Shown here: positions 634-7,562 of the stretch, in pieces
Numbering within the stretch: position 1 is the first letter of the stretch
Layout of the letters: the number at the start of each line of letters is the position of its first letter
Source: Enorma burkinafasonensis
GTDB taxonomy: Bacteria > Actinomycetota > Coriobacteriia > Coriobacteriales > Coriobacteriaceae
NCBI RefSeq assembly: GCF_902150035.1
Contig: NZ_LR597512.1
Span: 1-48,480, forward strand
DNA: 48,480 nucleotides
Direction of reading: 5' to 3'
Notes under the pieces: generated by a model
What the model saw: the letters and a program-made list of their open reading frames with translations, nothing else
Told to the model about the DNA's origin: nothing
The model's database searches: none
Translations under genes and position numbers: made by a program

Positions 634-1085
634 ATGACCGTCCTTTCTAGCACGCCGCCTGGACTTGCGGAAACGGCGCGGCGTGCACGCATGTGTAGAT
701 ATTGTATAGGGAGCGTGGCGCGCCTGCGGGGGCGGAGCGCGCCTTATCGGCGGTCGGAGGGCCGGCTACGTCGCGTTTCCCCTGTGTGCAACCGGGAAAT
801 GCGCGGGACATGGTCCGGAGACGCTAATCGGCGAACGGTAGGCGGCCCCGCTGCGCAGTGAGGGGTTTTCGGCGAACGGTTTCGCGCCTCACGGCGACGC
901 CGCGCCCTCGAGCGAGGCGGCGGGCGCGCCCGCCTACCCGCCGGCGCCCTCGGCGCACCGTGCCTGCGCGGGCGGCGTCGGGCGCGGGCGCTGTGTGCTC
1001 TCGGTGGTCATGATTAGCGTCCACGCCCCCCGGGCATAATCCCCAAGACTCAAGAGCCGTAAAGCGTATTCGTTGGAGGTATGAC
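634..1085. other. Intergenic region, divergent promoters, no gene seen
   Basis: A 452-bp gap between divergent genes with no credible ORF. An AT-rich patch at ~697-716 (TATTGTATAGG) probably holds the minus-strand decarboxylase promoter. CATAAT at 1036-1041 could be a -10 for the superoxide reductase. The motif GGCGAACGGT occurs twice (831 and 872), and a related motif recurs near 18.24 kb. Confidence 0.4.
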
Positions 1086-1448
1086 ATGGCGACGTTTTTC
1101 AAGGATGCCGATGGCAACATCATCACCGCGCTCAAGGCGGGCACGCCCGTGCCGGCCGGCTTCGAGGCGCTCGAGGCCAACACCACCGACGCCGCGACGG
1201 AGAAGCACGTCCCGGTCGTCGAGTCGCAGCGTGACGGCCACGTGCTCTGCGTGACCGTCGGCGAGGTCGAGCACCCCATGGAGGAGAAGCACTACATCGA
1301 GTGGATCGCGCTCGAGGCCGACGACCGCCTGGAGGTCCACCACCTCAAGCCCGGCCAGACCCCGCGCGTGTTCTTCCCCGCCGGCCCCAAGAACGGGACG
1401 GTCTACGCCTACTGCAACCTGCACGGCCTGTGGAAGGCGGATTTCTAG
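1086..1448 (+). CDS. Superoxide reductase (desulfoferrodoxin catalytic domain)
   Basis: Reduces superoxide to hydrogen peroxide without making oxygen; a cytoplasmic defence in anaerobes. All five ligands of the Fe(His)4Cys centre are visible in family order: H41 (E-K-H-V-P, with the conserved E39-K40 pair), H63 (E-H-P-M), H69 (K-H-Y), C110 and H113 (Y-C-N-L-H-G-L-W). At 120 residues it has a short N-terminal segment (F-F-K-D-A-D-G-N) where two-iron desulfoferrodoxins carry the four-Cys desulforedoxin site; those cysteines are absent, so this is a one-iron type. SD TTGGAGG precedes the ATG. Monocistronic, ended by the terminator at 1475. Confidence 0.93.
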   Translation: MATFFKDADGNIITALKAGTPVPAGFEALEANTTDAATEKHVPVVESQRDGHVLCVTVGEVEHPMEEKHYIEWIALEADDRLEVHHLKPGQTPRVFFPAGPKNGTVYAYCNLHGLWKADF

Positions 1449-1474
1449 CCGGCAGCCGCGCACAGCCGATGTCG

Positions 1475-1500
1475 GGGGCCGTCGCATGACGGCCCCTTTT
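1475..1500 (+). terminator. Rho-independent terminator after superoxide reductase
   Basis: Perfect 9-bp stem (1475-1483 with 1488-1496), GCAT loop, then TTTT; 27 bp after the stop codon. Confidence 0.9.
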
Positions 1501-1580
1501 GCCATACGGGGCGGCGGCGTGCAGGTAAACTGTTTCGTTAAGGTAAGTCAGGGGAACCGAGCGGGGAGGGAAGGCGTTCC

Positions 1581-3569
1581 ATGAAGATCGCGCTCGCGCA
1601 GATCGATTGCCGGCTCGGGGATATCGAGCGCATCTGCTCGCGTATCGAGAGCCAGGCCTCGCTCGCCCACGACCAGGGCGCGCGGGTCCTGTGCGTCCCG
1701 GCCCCGCTTCTGGGCGGCACCGCGCCCGGCACGCTCGCGGAGTCTGCCGACTACATCCACGACGTGCTCACGGCCCTGACCGACCTCTCCGCGCACTGCG
1801 CGCGCCTGGGCGTCGTCGCGCTCGTGCCCGCGGTCGTCGCGCACGAGGGCGCGCCCATCCTCGAGCTCTTCATGCTCAAGAAGGGGCGCGTGATCCCGGT
1901 GCGCACCCTTCTGGCCCTGCGCCGCGCCCAGGCCCAGGAGGAGCTCTGGCAGCCACCCGTGTTCGATGTCGACGGGGTGCGCCTGGCGGTCACGTTCGAC
2001 GCCCACCGCGACCTCGAGGAGCTCCCCCAGGGGGTCGACGCGCTCATCTACTTCCAGATGGACGCGCTCAACCTCGCGGACGAGTCGACGGCGGCGGTCG
2101 CGGCGGTCGCCGACGGCCATTTCCGCGAGCAGGTCGCCCGGCGGAGCCTGTGGTTCGCGTGCATGGCGCCCGTCGGCGGGTTCGACGACGCCGTCTTCTG
2201 CGGCGGGTCGTTCGTGATGGACGACGGCGGCCGCGTGGTCGCCTGCGCGCCCTGCTTCGAGGAGGCGCTGCTTATCCAGGAGATCTCCCGCGGGGTCGCC
2301 GTGCCGTGCATGGAGGACCACGAGCTGCCGCACTTCGAGCGCAACGAATGGCTCTGGGAGGCCCTGAGGCTCGGGCTCGCCGACGCCGTCGCCGCCCAGG
2401 CGCGCGGGCGCGCGGTGCTCGTGCTCGCCGGCGACCTCCCCAGCTCGCTGCTCGCGGCGCTCGCCGTGGACGCGCTGGGTCCGCGCAACGTGGTGGGGCT
2501 CTTCGTGGCCCGCCAGGGCATTGCCACGCCCGCCCAGGAGGCGGCCGAGGAGGCGCGCGCGTCACGGGCCCGCGAGCTCGCCCGCCATCTGGGCATCCGC
2601 CTGGTGGAGCGCACCGAGCCTGACCAGGGCCTCGTGCTCGACGCCGACGGGGCCGTCGCCTCCCGGGCGGGGCGCGCCGCGGGCATCGAGCGGCTGCTTC
2701 TGGCCGACCTGGCCCATGCCGAGGCCGCGGTGCCCCTGAGCGCGATCACCAAGACGCACGCGGCCCTCGCCCCCTCCATGGCGGAGGGGGCCCTCGCCGG
2801 CCAGATCGCGCCGTTCGGGGACGTGTACCTCACCGCGCTGGAGTTCCTCGCCCGTTCGCGCAACCGCGCCGGCGAGGTCGTGCCCGCCGAGCTGGTCTCG
2901 CTCAAGGCGGTCGCCTCGACCATGGGCGATATCGTCGCCCATGCCGTGTGGGCCGAGCGCGCCGACGCCGCCTACGCCGGCAAGATGGCGGCGCTTCTGG
3001 CGGAGCTCGAGCCCAACCAGATCGACGGCGTGCTCGAGGCGCACGTCGACCGCGGGCTCTCGCTCGACGAGCTGCCCCTGGCGCCGTCCGCGCCCGAGGC
3101 GTGCGCGCTGCTGCTCATGATCGTGCGCCAGGGCGAGACGGCCCGGCGTGCGCTGCCCATGGCGTTCTCGGTCTCGGCCCGCACGTTCGAGGAGCGCGCC
3201 TGGCCGCGCGGCCTCGCCTGGTCCGACCTGGGGCTGCGCGACGCCGAGCGCCTGACGCTCGCCGACGTGGCGCAGAAGGAGATCGAGCGCGCCGAGTCGC
3301 GTGGCGCCGAGATGGGCGAGCGCATGCGCGGCGAGCTCATGGGCCTCATCAGCGGGCTTTTGGGCATCAGTCCCGAGCAGCTGGAGGAGCTCGGCTCTGA
3401 GGAGGGCCAGCGCCGGCTGGGCGAGGGCATCGCGCGCTTCGAGAGCCAGATGCGCGAGGCGTTCGAGCAGATGGCCGAGCAGGATGGGCCGGATGCCGGA
3501 GGCGGCCATCCCGGCCAGGCGGGCGGCGCGCCCGGAATGCGCGGCCTGCCGTTCTTCTCCCTCAACTGA
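1581..3569 (+). CDS. Degenerate glutamine-dependent NAD synthetase-like protein
   Basis: A 662-residue protein with the two-domain layout of NadE: nitrilase-like residues 1-235 and NAD-synthetase-like residues ~255-545, plus a C-terminal ~110-residue extension rich in Glu/Gln and ending in Gly/Pro. Key active-site residues appear lost in both domains. The nitrilase Glu (usually F-P-E-L) is Ala41 in V-P-A-P-L. The expected Cys region reads L-I-Y-F-Q-M-D. The ATP pyrophosphatase loop S-G-G-x-D-S is A283-G-D-L-P-S-S. Later landmarks survive (T-K-T-H-A-A-L ~390, P-F-G-D-V-Y ~411). I infer a pseudoenzyme or altered function rather than a working synthetase; real NadE should lie elsewhere. The frame is open and GC3-rich, so it is selected as protein. 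ruvC starts 100 bp downstream. Confidence 0.75.
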   Translation: MKIALAQIDCRLGDIERICSRIESQASLAHDQGARVLCVPAPLLGGTAPGTLAESADYIHDVLTALTDLSAHCARLGVVALVPAVVAHEGAPILELFMLKKGRVIPVRTLLALRRAQAQEELWQPPVFDVDGVRLAVTFDAHRDLEELPQGVDALIYFQMDALNLADESTAAVAAVADGHFREQVARRSLWFACMAPVGGFDDAVFCGGSFVMDDGGRVVACAPCFEEALLIQEISRGVAVPCMEDHELPHFERNEWLWEALRLGLADAVAAQARGRAVLVLAGDLPSSLLAALAVDALGPRNVVGLFVARQGIATPAQEAAEEARASRARELARHLGIRLVERTEPDQGLVLDADGAVASRAGRAAGIERLLLADLAHAEAAVPLSAITKTHAALAPSMAEGALAGQIAPFGDVYLTALEFLARSRNRAGEVVPAELVSLKAVASTMGDIVAHAVWAERADAAYAGKMAALLAELEPNQIDGVLEAHVDRGLSLDELPLAPSAPEACALLLMIVRQGETARRALPMAFSVSARTFEERAWPRGLAWSDLGLRDAERLTLADVAQKEIERAESRGAEMGERMRGELMGLISGLLGISPEQLEELGSEEGQRRLGEGIARFESQMREAFEQMAEQDGPDAGGGHPGQAGGAPGMRGLPFFSLN

Positions 3570-3612
3570 TGCCCGAGGTGCGTTCGCGCTAGCGCGCTCG
3601 GGGCCGCTGTGC

Positions 3613-3618
3613 TAATCT
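3613..3618 (+). promoter_or_regulatory. Possible -10 element (TAATCT) for ruvCAB
   Basis: TG-x-TAATCT lies 52 bp before ruvC. Similar TG-rich -10 hexamers (TACACT, TATACT, TAGACT) precede other genes here. No clear -35. Confidence 0.35.
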
Positions 3619-3669
3619 AGAACAGATGTTCGAAGCGTTAGGGCGCGCGGGCGCCGGGGAAGGGGCCGC

Positions 3670-4194
3670 ATGGTCATCCTGGGGATCGATCCCGGTCTGG
3701 CGAACACCGGCTGGGGTGTCGTCGAGGAGCGGCGCGGGTCGTGCCGGTGCCGCGCCTACGGCTGCATCCATACCACGCCCGACGACGACCTCGCGTCGCG
3801 CCTGAGGGCCATCGTCGACGACCTCGCCCGCGCCATCGGGCGCTACCGGCCCGATGCCGCCGCGATCGAGGGCATCTACTTCGGCGCGAACGTGCGCTCG
3901 GCCATCCCCACGGCGCATGCCCGCGGCGCGGCGCTCGTCGCCTGCAGCCTCGCGGACATCGCGGTGGGGGAGTACACCCCCATGCAGATCAAGCAGGCCG
4001 TGGTGGGCACCGGCGCCGCCGACAAGCGGCAGGTCACCTACATGGTGCGCAGCCTCCTCGCGCTCGATCACGACCCCAAGCCCGACCATGCGGCGGACGC
4101 GCTCGCCTGCGCCATCTGCCATGCCAACCTCGTCCGTACCGAGGCGCTTACCAGCGGCGCCTACATCCAGGAGAAGGGAAACCCGTACTCATGA
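3670..4194 (+). CDS. ruvC: Holliday junction endonuclease RuvC
   Basis: Dimeric resolvase that nicks Holliday junctions during recombinational repair. The four acidic/His active-site positions are in place: D7 (G-I-D-P-G), E67 (A-I-E-G-I), H140 and D143 (P-D-H-A-A-D-A-L-A). Length 174 is normal for the family. SD GGGGAAGGGG. Its stop overlaps the ruvA start (ATGA), the first link of a ruvC-ruvA-ruvB operon. Confidence 0.97.
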   Translation: MVILGIDPGLANTGWGVVEERRGSCRCRAYGCIHTTPDDDLASRLRAIVDDLARAIGRYRPDAAAIEGIYFGANVRSAIPTAHARGAALVACSLADIAVGEYTPMQIKQAVVGTGAADKRQVTYMVRSLLALDHDPKPDHAADALACAICHANLVRTEALTSGAYIQEKGNPYS

Positions 4195-4808
4195 TCGCTC
4201 AGTTGCGCGGAACGCTCGTGGAGGCGACGCTCTCCCAGGCGGTGATCGATGTCTCGGGCATCGGGTTCGAGGTGGGCATCTCGGGCCTCACGGCGGCGGC
4301 CCTGCCGGCGCTCGGCGAGGAGGTCCGGCTCTTCACGCGCATGCGCGTGGGCCAGGACGCCGTGGCGGTCTTCGGCTTCGCCACGCGCGAGGAGCGCACG
4401 GTCTTCGACCGGCTCGTCGCCGTGGCCACGGTGGGCCCGCGTCTCGCGCTCGCGGTGCTCTCGAAGTACTCCGCCTCGCAGCTCTACTCCATCGTCATGG
4501 CCGAGGACGCGGCGGCGATGGCTGCGGTGCCCGGCGTGGGCAAGAAGAAGGCGCAGCGCCTCATCCTGGAGCTCAAGGGGTCGCTCGCCCAGGATACCGA
4601 GCTCGCGGGCGCGGCCGCGCCGCTTCCGGGCCAGGCGCCGCTCTCGCTCTCGAGCTCCTCGCCCGCAGACGACGCGCGACAGGCGCTGCTCTCGATGGGC
4701 TTCAGCCCGCAGGAGGCCGACCTCGCGCTCGAAGGGTATGATGGTCGGGACATGCGGGTCGAGGACCTCCTCGCCGCAGCGCTCAAGCGACTCGGGATGG
4801 ATGCATGA
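4191..4808 (+). CDS. ruvA: Holliday junction branch migration protein RuvA
   Basis: 205-residue DNA-binding subunit that loads RuvB on Holliday junctions. The N-terminal OB-fold begins M-I-A-Q-L-R-G-T-L. Helix-hairpin-helix signatures are at V-G-P-R-L-A-L and [11 protein letters not shown]. After an acidic, Ser/Pro-rich linker, a C-terminal UBA-like domain binds RuvB ([10 protein letters not shown]). The start at 4191 overlaps the ruvC stop as ATGA and has GGAGAAGGG upstream; a longer reading of this frame would run into ruvC. Its stop in turn overlaps the ruvB ATG. Confidence 0.96.
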
Positions 4809-5899
4809 TGTGGGAAGACACCTCTGAGGACCTCTGGGCGGGTGACGCCGCGCGCAGCCCGCATGCCCCCGCGCCGGCCGCGCCCGCGCCCGGCCAGCAC
4901 GGCGACCGCTTCGTGACGGGCAACCTCACGGGCGAGGACCTGGATGTCGAGCGGTCGCTGCGCCCGCAGAAGCTCGATGACTACTGCGGTCAGGAGCACA
5001 TCAAGCAGAGCCTGCGCATCCTCATCGAGGCCGCCCAGAGCCGCGGGGAGACCTTGGACCACGTGATCTTCTCGGGCCCCCCGGGGCTCGGCAAGACCAC
5101 GCTCGCCGCCGTGGTCGCCAACGAGCTGGGCGCCCAGATCAAGACCACCTCGGGCCCCGCCATCGAGCGCACGGGCGACCTCGCGGCGATCCTCACCAAC
5201 CTCCAGCCCGGCGACGTGCTCTTCATCGACGAGATCCATCGCCTCAACCGCTCCGTCGAGGAGATCCTCTATCCCGCGATGGAGGATTTCGCGCTCGACA
5301 TCGTGATCGGCAAGGGGCCCGCCGCCCGCTCGATCCGCCTCGACATCCCGCGCTTCACGCTCGTGGGCGCCACCACGCGCTCCGGCATGCTCACTGGCCC
5401 TCTGCGCGACCGCTTCGGCATCTCGTTCAGGCTCGACTACTACAGCGTCGACGACCTCGCTCAGATCGTGCTGCGCTCCGCGGCGATCCTCGGCGTGGAG
5501 GTCGACCGCGCCTCGGCGCTCGAGATCGCTTCGCGCTCGCGCGGCACGCCGCGCCTGGCGAACCGCCTGCTCAAGCGCGTGCGCGACTACGCGCAGGTGC
5601 GGGGGAGCGGCCCTGTGGACCTGCCGATCGCCCGCGAGGCGCTCGAGTTCTTCGAGATCGACGAGCTCGGTCTGGACTGGATGGACATCCGCATCCTGGA
5701 GACGCTCGCCAAGACGTTCCGCGGCCGCGCTGTGGGCCTCACCACGCTCGCGAGCGCCGTGGGCGAGGACCCCTCCACCCTCGAGGACGTCTACGAGCCC
5801 TACCTGCTGCAGCGCGGTCTCATCGTGCGCACCCCGCAGGGCCGCATGGCGACCCTGGCGGCCTTCGACCACCTGGGCATGGAGCCGCCGGCACGGTAG
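4805..5899 (+). CDS. ruvB: Holliday junction branch migration helicase RuvB
   Basis: AAA+ hexameric motor driving branch migration with RuvA. Visible: Walker A G-P-P-G-L-G-K-T (91-98), Walker B L-F-I-D-E-I-H (139-145), sensor-1 G-A-T-T (188-191), arginine finger in P-L-R-D-R-F-G (199-205), and the C-terminal winged helix (~290-364). A ~45-residue Ala/Pro-rich N-terminal extension makes it longer than the usual ~340. Two ATGs are adjacent (4805, 4808); 4805 gives the ATGA overlap with ruvA. Confidence 0.97.
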
Positions 5900-6002
5900 G
5901 GGCACGTCCCGCCGGGCGCGGGCGAGGCGGTGCCTACCGGGCGCCCTCGGGCGCGCATGCGCCTACGCCGCCCGCCTCGCGCCCCGAGCTTCCCCGCGCT
6001 GC

Positions 6003-6008
6003 TACACT
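6003..6008 (+). promoter_or_regulatory. Possible -10 element (TACACT)
   Basis: Hexamer 34 bp before the C69 dipeptidase start, matching the TACACT/TATACT form before several genes here. No convincing -35. Confidence 0.35.
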
Positions 6009-6041
6009 GGGGAGGACCGACGGCGTATCGAGGAGGCCCCC

Positions 6042-7562
6042 ATGCCCTGCACCACCATCCTGATCGGCAAGAACGCGAGCTATGACGGCTCGACCATCGT
6101 CGCCCGCAACGAGGACTCGCCCAACGGGCAGTTCGAGCCCAAACGGCTCTGCGTCGTGAAGTCCGAGGACCAGCCGCGCGTCTACACGGCGACGACCTCG
6201 AAGGTCACCATCGAGCTGCCCGGCGACCCCATGCGCTACACCGCCGTGCCGGATGCCGTGCCGGGTCACGGGCCGTGGGCGGCCGCCGGCGTGAACGAGC
6301 TCAACGTCGCGATGAGCGCGACCGAGACCATCACCTCGAACCCGCGCGTGCTGGGGGCCGACCCGCTCGTCATCTACCGCCCGGCCGAGGGCGCGGAGGG
6401 CGAGCCCGGCTACGTGCCCGCCCGGCCGGGCGGCATCGGCGAGGAGGACATGGTGACGCTCGTGCTGCCCTACATCACGAGCGCCCGCGACGGCGTGCGG
6501 CGCCTGGGCGCGCTCCTCGAGCGCTACGGCACCTACGAGATGAACGGCATCGCCTTCTCAGACGTCGACGAGATCTGGTGGCTGGAGACCGTGGGCGGCC
6601 ACCATTGGATCGCCCGGCGCGTGCCCGACGACGCCTACGTGACCATGCCCAACCAGCTGGGCATCGACCGCTTCGACCTCGCAGACGCCGAGGGCGCCGA
6701 GGCCGAGCACATGGCGAGCGCCGACCTGCGCGCGTGGATGGCCGAGCACCACCTCGACCTCACGCTCCGCGGCGACGGCGACGCGACGGACGTCTTCAAC
6801 CCGCGCGAGGCCTTCGGCTCGCACACTGATTCGGACCACGTGTACAACACGCCGCGGGCCTGGTACATGCAGCGCTGCCTGAACCCGCACGACAGCTGGG
6901 ACGGCCCGGCCGCGCGCCACACGCCCGAGTCCGACGACATCCCCTGGGCGCGCGTCCCCGAGCGCAAGCTCACCGTCGAGGACGTGAAGGACGTGCTCTC
7001 GGCGCACTACCAGGGCACCCCGTTCGACCCGTACGGCACCCTGGGCACGCCGGGCTCGCGGGCGCGCTACCGCCCCATCGGTATCAACCGCAGCGGCCAG
7101 CTCGCCGTGCTGCAGCTGCGCGACCGGGTGCCCGCGGCCTGGCGCGCCGTGCAGTGGATGGCCTTCGGCTCGAACCCCTTCAACGCGCTCGTGCCCTTCT
7201 ACACCAATGTGGACGCGCTGCCGGAGTACCTCGGCAACACGACCGCGCGCGTGACGAGCGAGAGCTTCTACTGGGCGAACCGCCTCATCGCGGCCCTGGC
7301 GGACGCGCGCTTCCACGAGAACGCAGCCGCGATCGAGGGCTACCAGGAGGCCATGGCCGCCGCGGGCCACGCGATGCTCGGCCGCACCGACGCCGAGGCC
7401 GCCGCAGCCTCCGAGGACGAGGTTCCGGCCCTGCTCGCCCGCGCGAACGACGATATGGCCCGCAAGCTCAAGCGCGCCACCGAGGAGCTTCTGGGCAAGG
7501 TGCTCTACATCACGAGCTGCGCGATGCGAAACGGCTTCTCGATGTCGGACAACGAGCGGTAG
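6042..7562 (+). CDS. C69-family dipeptidase (PepD-like)
   Basis: N-terminal nucleophile hydrolase that cleaves dipeptides. Cys3 directly after the initiator Met-Pro is the expected catalytic nucleophile, exposed by N-terminal processing. The opening M-P-C-T-T-I-L-I-G, then D-G-S-T-I-V-A-R-N-E-D (15-25), is the family signature. Length 506 is usual. No signal peptide, so probably cytoplasmic, consistent with use of imported peptides in an amino-acid-fermenting anaerobe. Strong SD GAGGAGG. Monocistronic; the next gene starts 163 bp later after a GC-rich spacer. Confidence 0.92.
   Translation: MPCTTILIGKNASYDGSTIVARNEDSPNGQFEPKRLCVVKSEDQPRVYTATTSKVTIELPGDPMRYTAVPDAVPGHGPWAAAGVNELNVAMSATETITSNPRVLGADPLVIYRPAEGAEGEPGYVPARPGGIGEEDMVTLVLPYITSARDGVRRLGALLERYGTYEMNGIAFSDVDEIWWLETVGGHHWIARRVPDDAYVTMPNQLGIDRFDLADAEGAEAEHMASADLRAWMAEHHLDLTLRGDGDATDVFNPREAFGSHTDSDHVYNTPRAWYMQRCLNPHDSWDGPAARHTPESDDIPWARVPERKLTVEDVKDVLSAHYQGTPFDPYGTLGTPGSRARYRPIGINRSGQLAVLQLRDRVPAAWRAVQWMAFGSNPFNALVPFYTNVDALPEYLGNTTARVTSESFYWANRLIAALADARFHENAAAIEGYQEAMAAAGHAMLGRTDAEAAAASEDEVPALLARANDDMARKLKRATEELLGKVLYITSCAMRNGFSMSDNER

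Follow-up and report, generated by a model that had tools for sequence, protein, structure and literature searches.

What does a NAD synthetase homologue do once both of its active sites appear to be dead? The question is raised by a 662-codon open frame, read from 1581 to 3569 on the + strand of the window (the whole stretch of 48,480 nucleotides of Enorma burkinafasonensis DNA that was analysed; the genome, at 99.96% completeness, comprises 48 contigs and 2.23 Mb), which encodes a NadE-derived protein of 662 aa, here called pseudo-NadE. A sequence-only reading had taken the product for a pseudoenzyme and had placed its intact frame just before ruvCAB; the frame is indeed open, and Pfam confirms all three downstream genes, with ruvC at 3670-4194 followed by ruvA and ruvB, ending at 5899. 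No promoters or terminators were found in 900-6050 (sigma-70 consensus only). A peptidase C69 gene lies after ruvB (window 6042-7562 (+); PF03577, 580 bits). The locus comprises the following features.

1086..1448, + strand: desulfoferrodoxin family gene, the upstream neighbour (PF01880, 71.5 bits)
1581..3569, + strand: NadE-derived pseudoenzyme, 662 aa (open frame; NF010588 E 6.6e-32; predicted fold; selection)
1581..2315, + strand: nitrilase-like (former glutaminase) domain, residues 1-245 (CN_hydrolase 22.4 bits, below cut-off; nitrilase folds at Z ~22)
1701..1703, + strand: A41, replacing the catalytic Glu (alignments; E in 0/96 f1/f5 copies)
1995..1997, + strand: F139, replacing the catalytic Cys (alignments)
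2337..3212, + strand: NAD synthase-like domain, residues ~253-544 (NAD_synthase 22.2 bits; alignment to 3n05 and 5kha)
2427..2447, + strand: lost ATP loop, AGDLPSS for SGGxDS(A) (alignments)
2751..2756, + strand: retained K391-T392, the K-S of TGNKSE in live enzymes (column frequencies)
3258..3479, + strand: predicted helical C-terminal extension, residues 560-633 (model secondary structure)
3555..3569, + strand: C-terminal F-S-L-N plus stop, the invariant FSxN end (96/96 f1/f5 copies and L068; pattern in the window)
3670..5899, + strand: ruvC, ruvA and ruvB, downstream (Pfam confirms all three)

The descent of the protein from NadE was clear from both sequence profiles and predicted structure. 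In Pfam, the 662-aa protein scored 22.2 bits for NAD_synthase (cut-off 21) and 22.4 bits for CN_hydrolase (cut-off 23.2), and the NCBIfam NAD+ synthase model NF010588 matched residues 1-537 with an E of 6.6e-32, at 110.6 bits against a curated cut-off of 479 and hence below the family threshold. A profile of 41 relatives retrieved the structures 3n05 (7.9e-47), 5kha (4e-46) and 4f4h (7e-40), and an AlphaFold2 model built from the same alignment (mean pLDDT 82.8, pTM 0.80) had 3n05 as its best structural match (Foldseek E 3.0e-29; Z 30.7, rmsd 2.9 A over 473 residues). Pfam, model and structure matches together indicate that both folds are present, an N-terminal nitrilase and a C-terminal NAD synthase as in a fused NAD synthetase, and the NF010588 E value and the extent of the fold match argue that the likeness is not chance. 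Pseudo-NadE thus shares domain order, fold and descent with fused glutamine-dependent NadE (type F; 3n05, 5kha, 4f4h; NF010588), but differs in lacking the C-E-K triad and SGGxDS, in its sub-cut-off score, and in an extra C-terminal extension ending in FSxN. The model also shares the synthetase-domain fold (Z ~23) with single-domain ammonia-dependent NadEs (1xng, 3p52), which are live enzymes without a nitrilase domain.

Two hallmarks of a fused NadE are absent from the Enorma protein. The first is the Cys-Glu-Lys glutaminase triad, whose residues are named in PMC6946656: the Glu column holds A41 (VPAPLLGG versus PELALTGY), the nitrilase Cys column holds F139, and the Lys-bearing segment is shortened compared with solved NadEs. 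The second is the SGGxDS ATP pyrophosphatase loop, where A283-G-D-L-P-S-S289 stands in place of SGGIDS. The substitutions reported from sequence alone (nitrilase Glu to Ala, the expected Cys region without Cys, and SGGxDS to AGDLPSS) therefore hold in alignment. It had been left conceivable that intact catalytic residues sit elsewhere; when the profile was aligned to 3n05 and to 5kha, the ATP loop was crossed gap-free and no alternative place for them emerged, and on these alignments we rejected this possibility.

The same reading had asked whether orthologues share the losses, and they do. Our sample covered 197 genomes of the order, with matches in 179, many of the unread matches being single-domain NadEs. 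Fused copies were read from 48/48 genomes of Coriobacteriaceae (family f1) and 48/49 of family f5, along with 32 copies from other families; L004, L055 and L056 (loci already used) and L195 (identical to L065) were left out as duplicates, and the truncated L095 was scored unreadable for the ATP loop. In the collection, a scan with A2 gave 58 loci, P0001 alone gave no matches, and the conservation of A1 was too low. None of the 48 f1 copies retained triad columns or motifs, SGGxDS, TGNKSE, LQARxR, KxPSAEL or EYKR, and the 48 f5 copies gave the same zeros apart from one with Cys in the aligned Cys column. Across both families, then, the E or K column, any triad motif and SGGxDS were each kept in 0/96 copies and Cys in its column in 1/96, and all 96 matches were uninterrupted.

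Elsewhere in the order, as a rule, only one of the two sites is gone. The 32 copies from other families had likewise lost the Glu and Lys columns without exception, with Cys in its column once (in f9) and the Cys motif never, whereas SGGxDS was present in 30/32, the exceptions being L092 and the truncated L095 (30/31 readable copies). The triad motifs were absent from each of the 30 copies in which SGGxDS is intact. These dead-glutaminase NadEs are of the same lineage as pseudo-NadE and share its triad loss, and L068 shares its FSxN end, but SGGxDS and the other synthetase motifs are live in them. Copies from elsewhere in the class, outside this order, had E, K, C and SGGxDS all intact (30/30, the best 30 of 70 matches, some of those 70 being single-domain NadEs). 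A PF02540 search of 36 genomes found the live fused copy to be the sole strong match in most genomes having one, which argues, from sequence, that copies with a live loop and a dead glutaminase are working and presumably ammonia-using synthetases; G005, G012, G099 and G133 carried an additional PF02540 match above 100 bits. At L068, L076-L094, L096 and L127-L136 the triad is lost, the synthetase motifs are live, and the gene is mostly the only strong NadE of its genome.

The sequence-only reading had also asked for a second, intact nadE in the genome; the absence of any other NAD synthetase would have spoken against the pseudoenzyme claim. We found a second, intact NadE of the long type (L001) on contig C16 of the Enorma genome (C16:202167-204191), with the motifs PELCLTGY, KESLPSYGEFYE, VCEDLW and SGGLDS; it lies distant from the pseudo-NadE gene, so that the two are not neighbours. 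The remaining four NAD_synthase matches in the genome are frames that all carry SGGxDS, which we take to be two GMP-synthase-like proteins, one LarE-like and one MnmA-like. Long-type NadE (also represented by Mycobacterium tuberculosis 3dla and 6ofc) likewise combines a nitrilase with a synthetase domain, but differs from pseudo-NadE in its live motifs, its distant branch and its location elsewhere in the genome. It was present in all 97 genomes of the two families (48/48 f1 and 49/49 f5). Outside them, matches at E <1e-50 occurred only in G053, G055 and G065 (the last partial), and genome searches found no fused relative in any of these three, which indicates that the old gene need not be retained once it has been replaced; replacement by long-type NadE can also end in plain loss.

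Phylogenies of the fused copies suggest a decay in two steps. In a tree of 52 rows, f1 and f5 grouped together (100/100), L068 of family f3 was sister to both (100/97), and the fused copies of the order all fell into a single clade (100/100) that excluded the intact copies of the class. Separate domain trees still placed f1 with f5, though L068 was not sister in the synthetase-domain tree, which has long branches. From the tree and the distribution of intact, half-dead and doubly dead copies, we infer that loss of the glutaminase preceded loss of the synthetase. The association between dead copies and long-type NadE represents mainly one event on the tree, not 97.

The single case of loop loss in another family was L092 (G148, f6; 2593-4389 (+)), in which SGGxDS has become KGDLAS and which carries DKTALALG like many f5 copies. 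The whole-protein tree placed it inside f6 (100/100), as did the nitrilase domain (99*), while its synthetase domain fell next to f1/f5 with a support of 91, a position for which the f6 constraint was not rejected (p-AU 0.512). Of 57 changed conserved columns in L092, 14 hold the f5 majority residue (shuffle p 0.0011) and 11 hold that of f1 (p 0.009). Its sequence would fit either independent decay with convergence or transfer of a dead domain. No strong long-type NadE match was found in G148, a genome 72% complete; its congener G065 has its partial match at a contig end.

We quantified selection on pseudo-NadE in 15 Collinsella loci (105 pairs, Nei-Gojobori). Median dN/dS was 0.067, with 0.39 in the highest pair, compared with 0.014 for RuvC, so pseudo-NadE is under strong purifying selection but is less constrained than RuvC. 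By part, values were 0.046 for the nitrilase, 0.030 for residues 246-450, 0.107 for 451-575 and 0.088 for the tail; the lowest value of the protein thus falls in the dead synthetase part. With both sites lost in all f1/f5 copies read, strong purifying selection and an intact NadE in the genome, the proposal of a pseudoenzyme is well supported.

Some residues have been retained and others newly near-fixed. The 60 live copies share 117 near-invariant columns, of which 30 were kept in f1/f5 and 87 were not; 79 of the lost columns lie in the synthetase, out of 100 conserved there. Those kept include Q7, S210, D297, K391, R427, D482 and R522, with K391 at a column frequency of 1.00 in both f1 and f5 (96/96) and T392 at 1.00 and 0.98. 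Newly near-fixed in f1/f5 are P83, D414, W547 and, at the end, F659, S660 and N662, while W191, W259, A395 and Y416 were common already in part of the live copies. The C-terminus reads FSxN in 96/96 f1/f5 copies and in L068, whose SGGIDS is intact, and a looser end (Asn at -1), which may be the same element, occurs in 14/18 f6 copies with a live loop. In the model, the last 30 residues have a pLDDT below 50. A search for the same end in other proteins of the genome found none: TTY-TCN-NNN-AAY-TRR, which covers TCN serine codons only, had 2 matches, this one and one ending in TGG, with no stop. That the gene is retained under selection and its product ends in an invariant C-terminal tail suggests some role, for which the new, perhaps regulatory, one of the sequence-only reading would be a candidate.

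We think it somewhat probable that pseudo-NadE is a retained pseudoenzyme derived from a fused NadE, acting without catalysis as a scaffold whose tail serves for docking. That it lacks NAD synthetase activity we regard as almost certain, whereas for a scaffold or docking function in particular the chances seem about even. The main argument for a docking tail is that the FSxN residues, which close a disordered stretch, are invariant. The ancestor would have been a fused, glutamine-dependent NAD synthetase. As the family series suggests, the ancestor of the order's fused copies may then have lost its glutaminase triad and kept the synthetase; with long-type NadE present, the f1/f5 lineage would have lost the ATP loop and most conserved synthetase residues, the two-domain fold being preserved throughout the decay. 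The resulting scaffold, probably oligomeric like NadE, may present the FSxN peptide on its flexible tail to a partner protein, with K391, D414, R427 and R522 serving to hold the fold or to bind a nucleotide-like ligand. Against this proposal, the tail could be structural, and both the weaker constraint relative to RuvC and the survival of G033 without the gene count against a scaffold.

Possible, though less probable, is that a tail-borne second function was gained while NadE was still live and kept the gene after long-type NadE took over. FSxN in the f3 sister with its SGGIDS, together with the similar end in live f6 copies, suggests such an order of events; if true, the new role came before the loss of catalysis, and both functions would persist in f3 or f6 members. 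Through its position before ruvCAB, a tail-borne role may be tied to Holliday-junction repair. A same-strand ruvC lies within 1 kb downstream at 48/48 f1 and 46/48 f5 pseudo-NadE loci, and a desulfoferrodoxin gene lies upstream at 48/48 and 39/48. G076 (L097) keeps the pseudo-NadE gene with no ruvC match within the fetched locus. G033 (one contig, 99% complete) is the sole f5 genome without pseudo-NadE, and it gave no RuvC match in a search with two congeners as positive controls; its only RuvB match was a weak AAA-type one, of a kind that turns up in G028 as well, in addition to the true RuvB there. The whole locus has apparently been lost in G033, and because one deletion accounts for both losses, we rejected this co-loss as an argument for a functional link.

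Among the remaining explanations, ranked by how well they survive, the first is a neofunctionalised enzyme, in which one pocket would use newly fixed residues to carry out another reaction. Near-fixed D414, W191, W259, W547 and P83 count against the scaffold reading, as a new active site would explain them too, and the retained K391, R427, R522, D482 and S210 and the low dN/dS of the synthetase part fit a new enzyme; with the known catalytic residues of both ancestral activities lost, so many conserved synthetase columns drifted, and the kept residues few and spread along the sequence, we consider it unlikely. More improbable is that pseudo-NadE assists or regulates the intact long-type NadE by mixed assembly: the dead copies do co-occur with that enzyme throughout f1 and f5, but it is of a distant type (matching fused copies at E ~1e-10 to 1e-26) encoded by a gene that is no neighbour, and no fused copy was found in G053, G055 and G033, all of which carry the long type. 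Very improbable is a remnant of NAD synthetase activity, ammonia-dependent and with the ATP loop remodelled, for although fold, K391, one loop Gly and one loop Ser are kept, SGGxDS, TGNKSE, LQARxR, KxPSAEL and EYKR are missing from all 96 copies and an intact NadE exists in the same genome. A decaying pseudogene or ruvCAB operon passenger, which the loss of all known catalytic residues and the long synthetase-domain branches might recall, is ruled out, barring an artefact in the selection measure, by the dN/dS, the uninterrupted matches and the invariant tail.

We searched open-licence PubMed Central papers for a NadE pseudoenzyme or NAD synthase in Collinsella or Coriobacteria, and found no doubly dead NadE homologue described. 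The fold and family are known; as far as searched, no earlier description exists of a conserved descendant of NadE that has lost both sites. De Ingeniis et al. (2012; PMC3376133) describe the fused NAD synthetases studied up to then as glutamine-using; on sequence grounds, the fused copies that combine a lost triad with a live loop would be exceptions. Since, in other families of this order, the triad motifs are missing from every fused copy in which SGGxDS is intact (30/30), a fused nitrilase domain is no proof of glutamine use by a NAD synthetase, and L068, L076-L094, L096 and L127-L136 are predicted to be ammonia-only enzymes despite the fused domain. Relatives that match NAD synthase models could likewise be misnamed under homology annotation. 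Living genomes show every stage from the intact enzyme to the double loss, and the path to a pseudoenzyme is thereby testable step by step.
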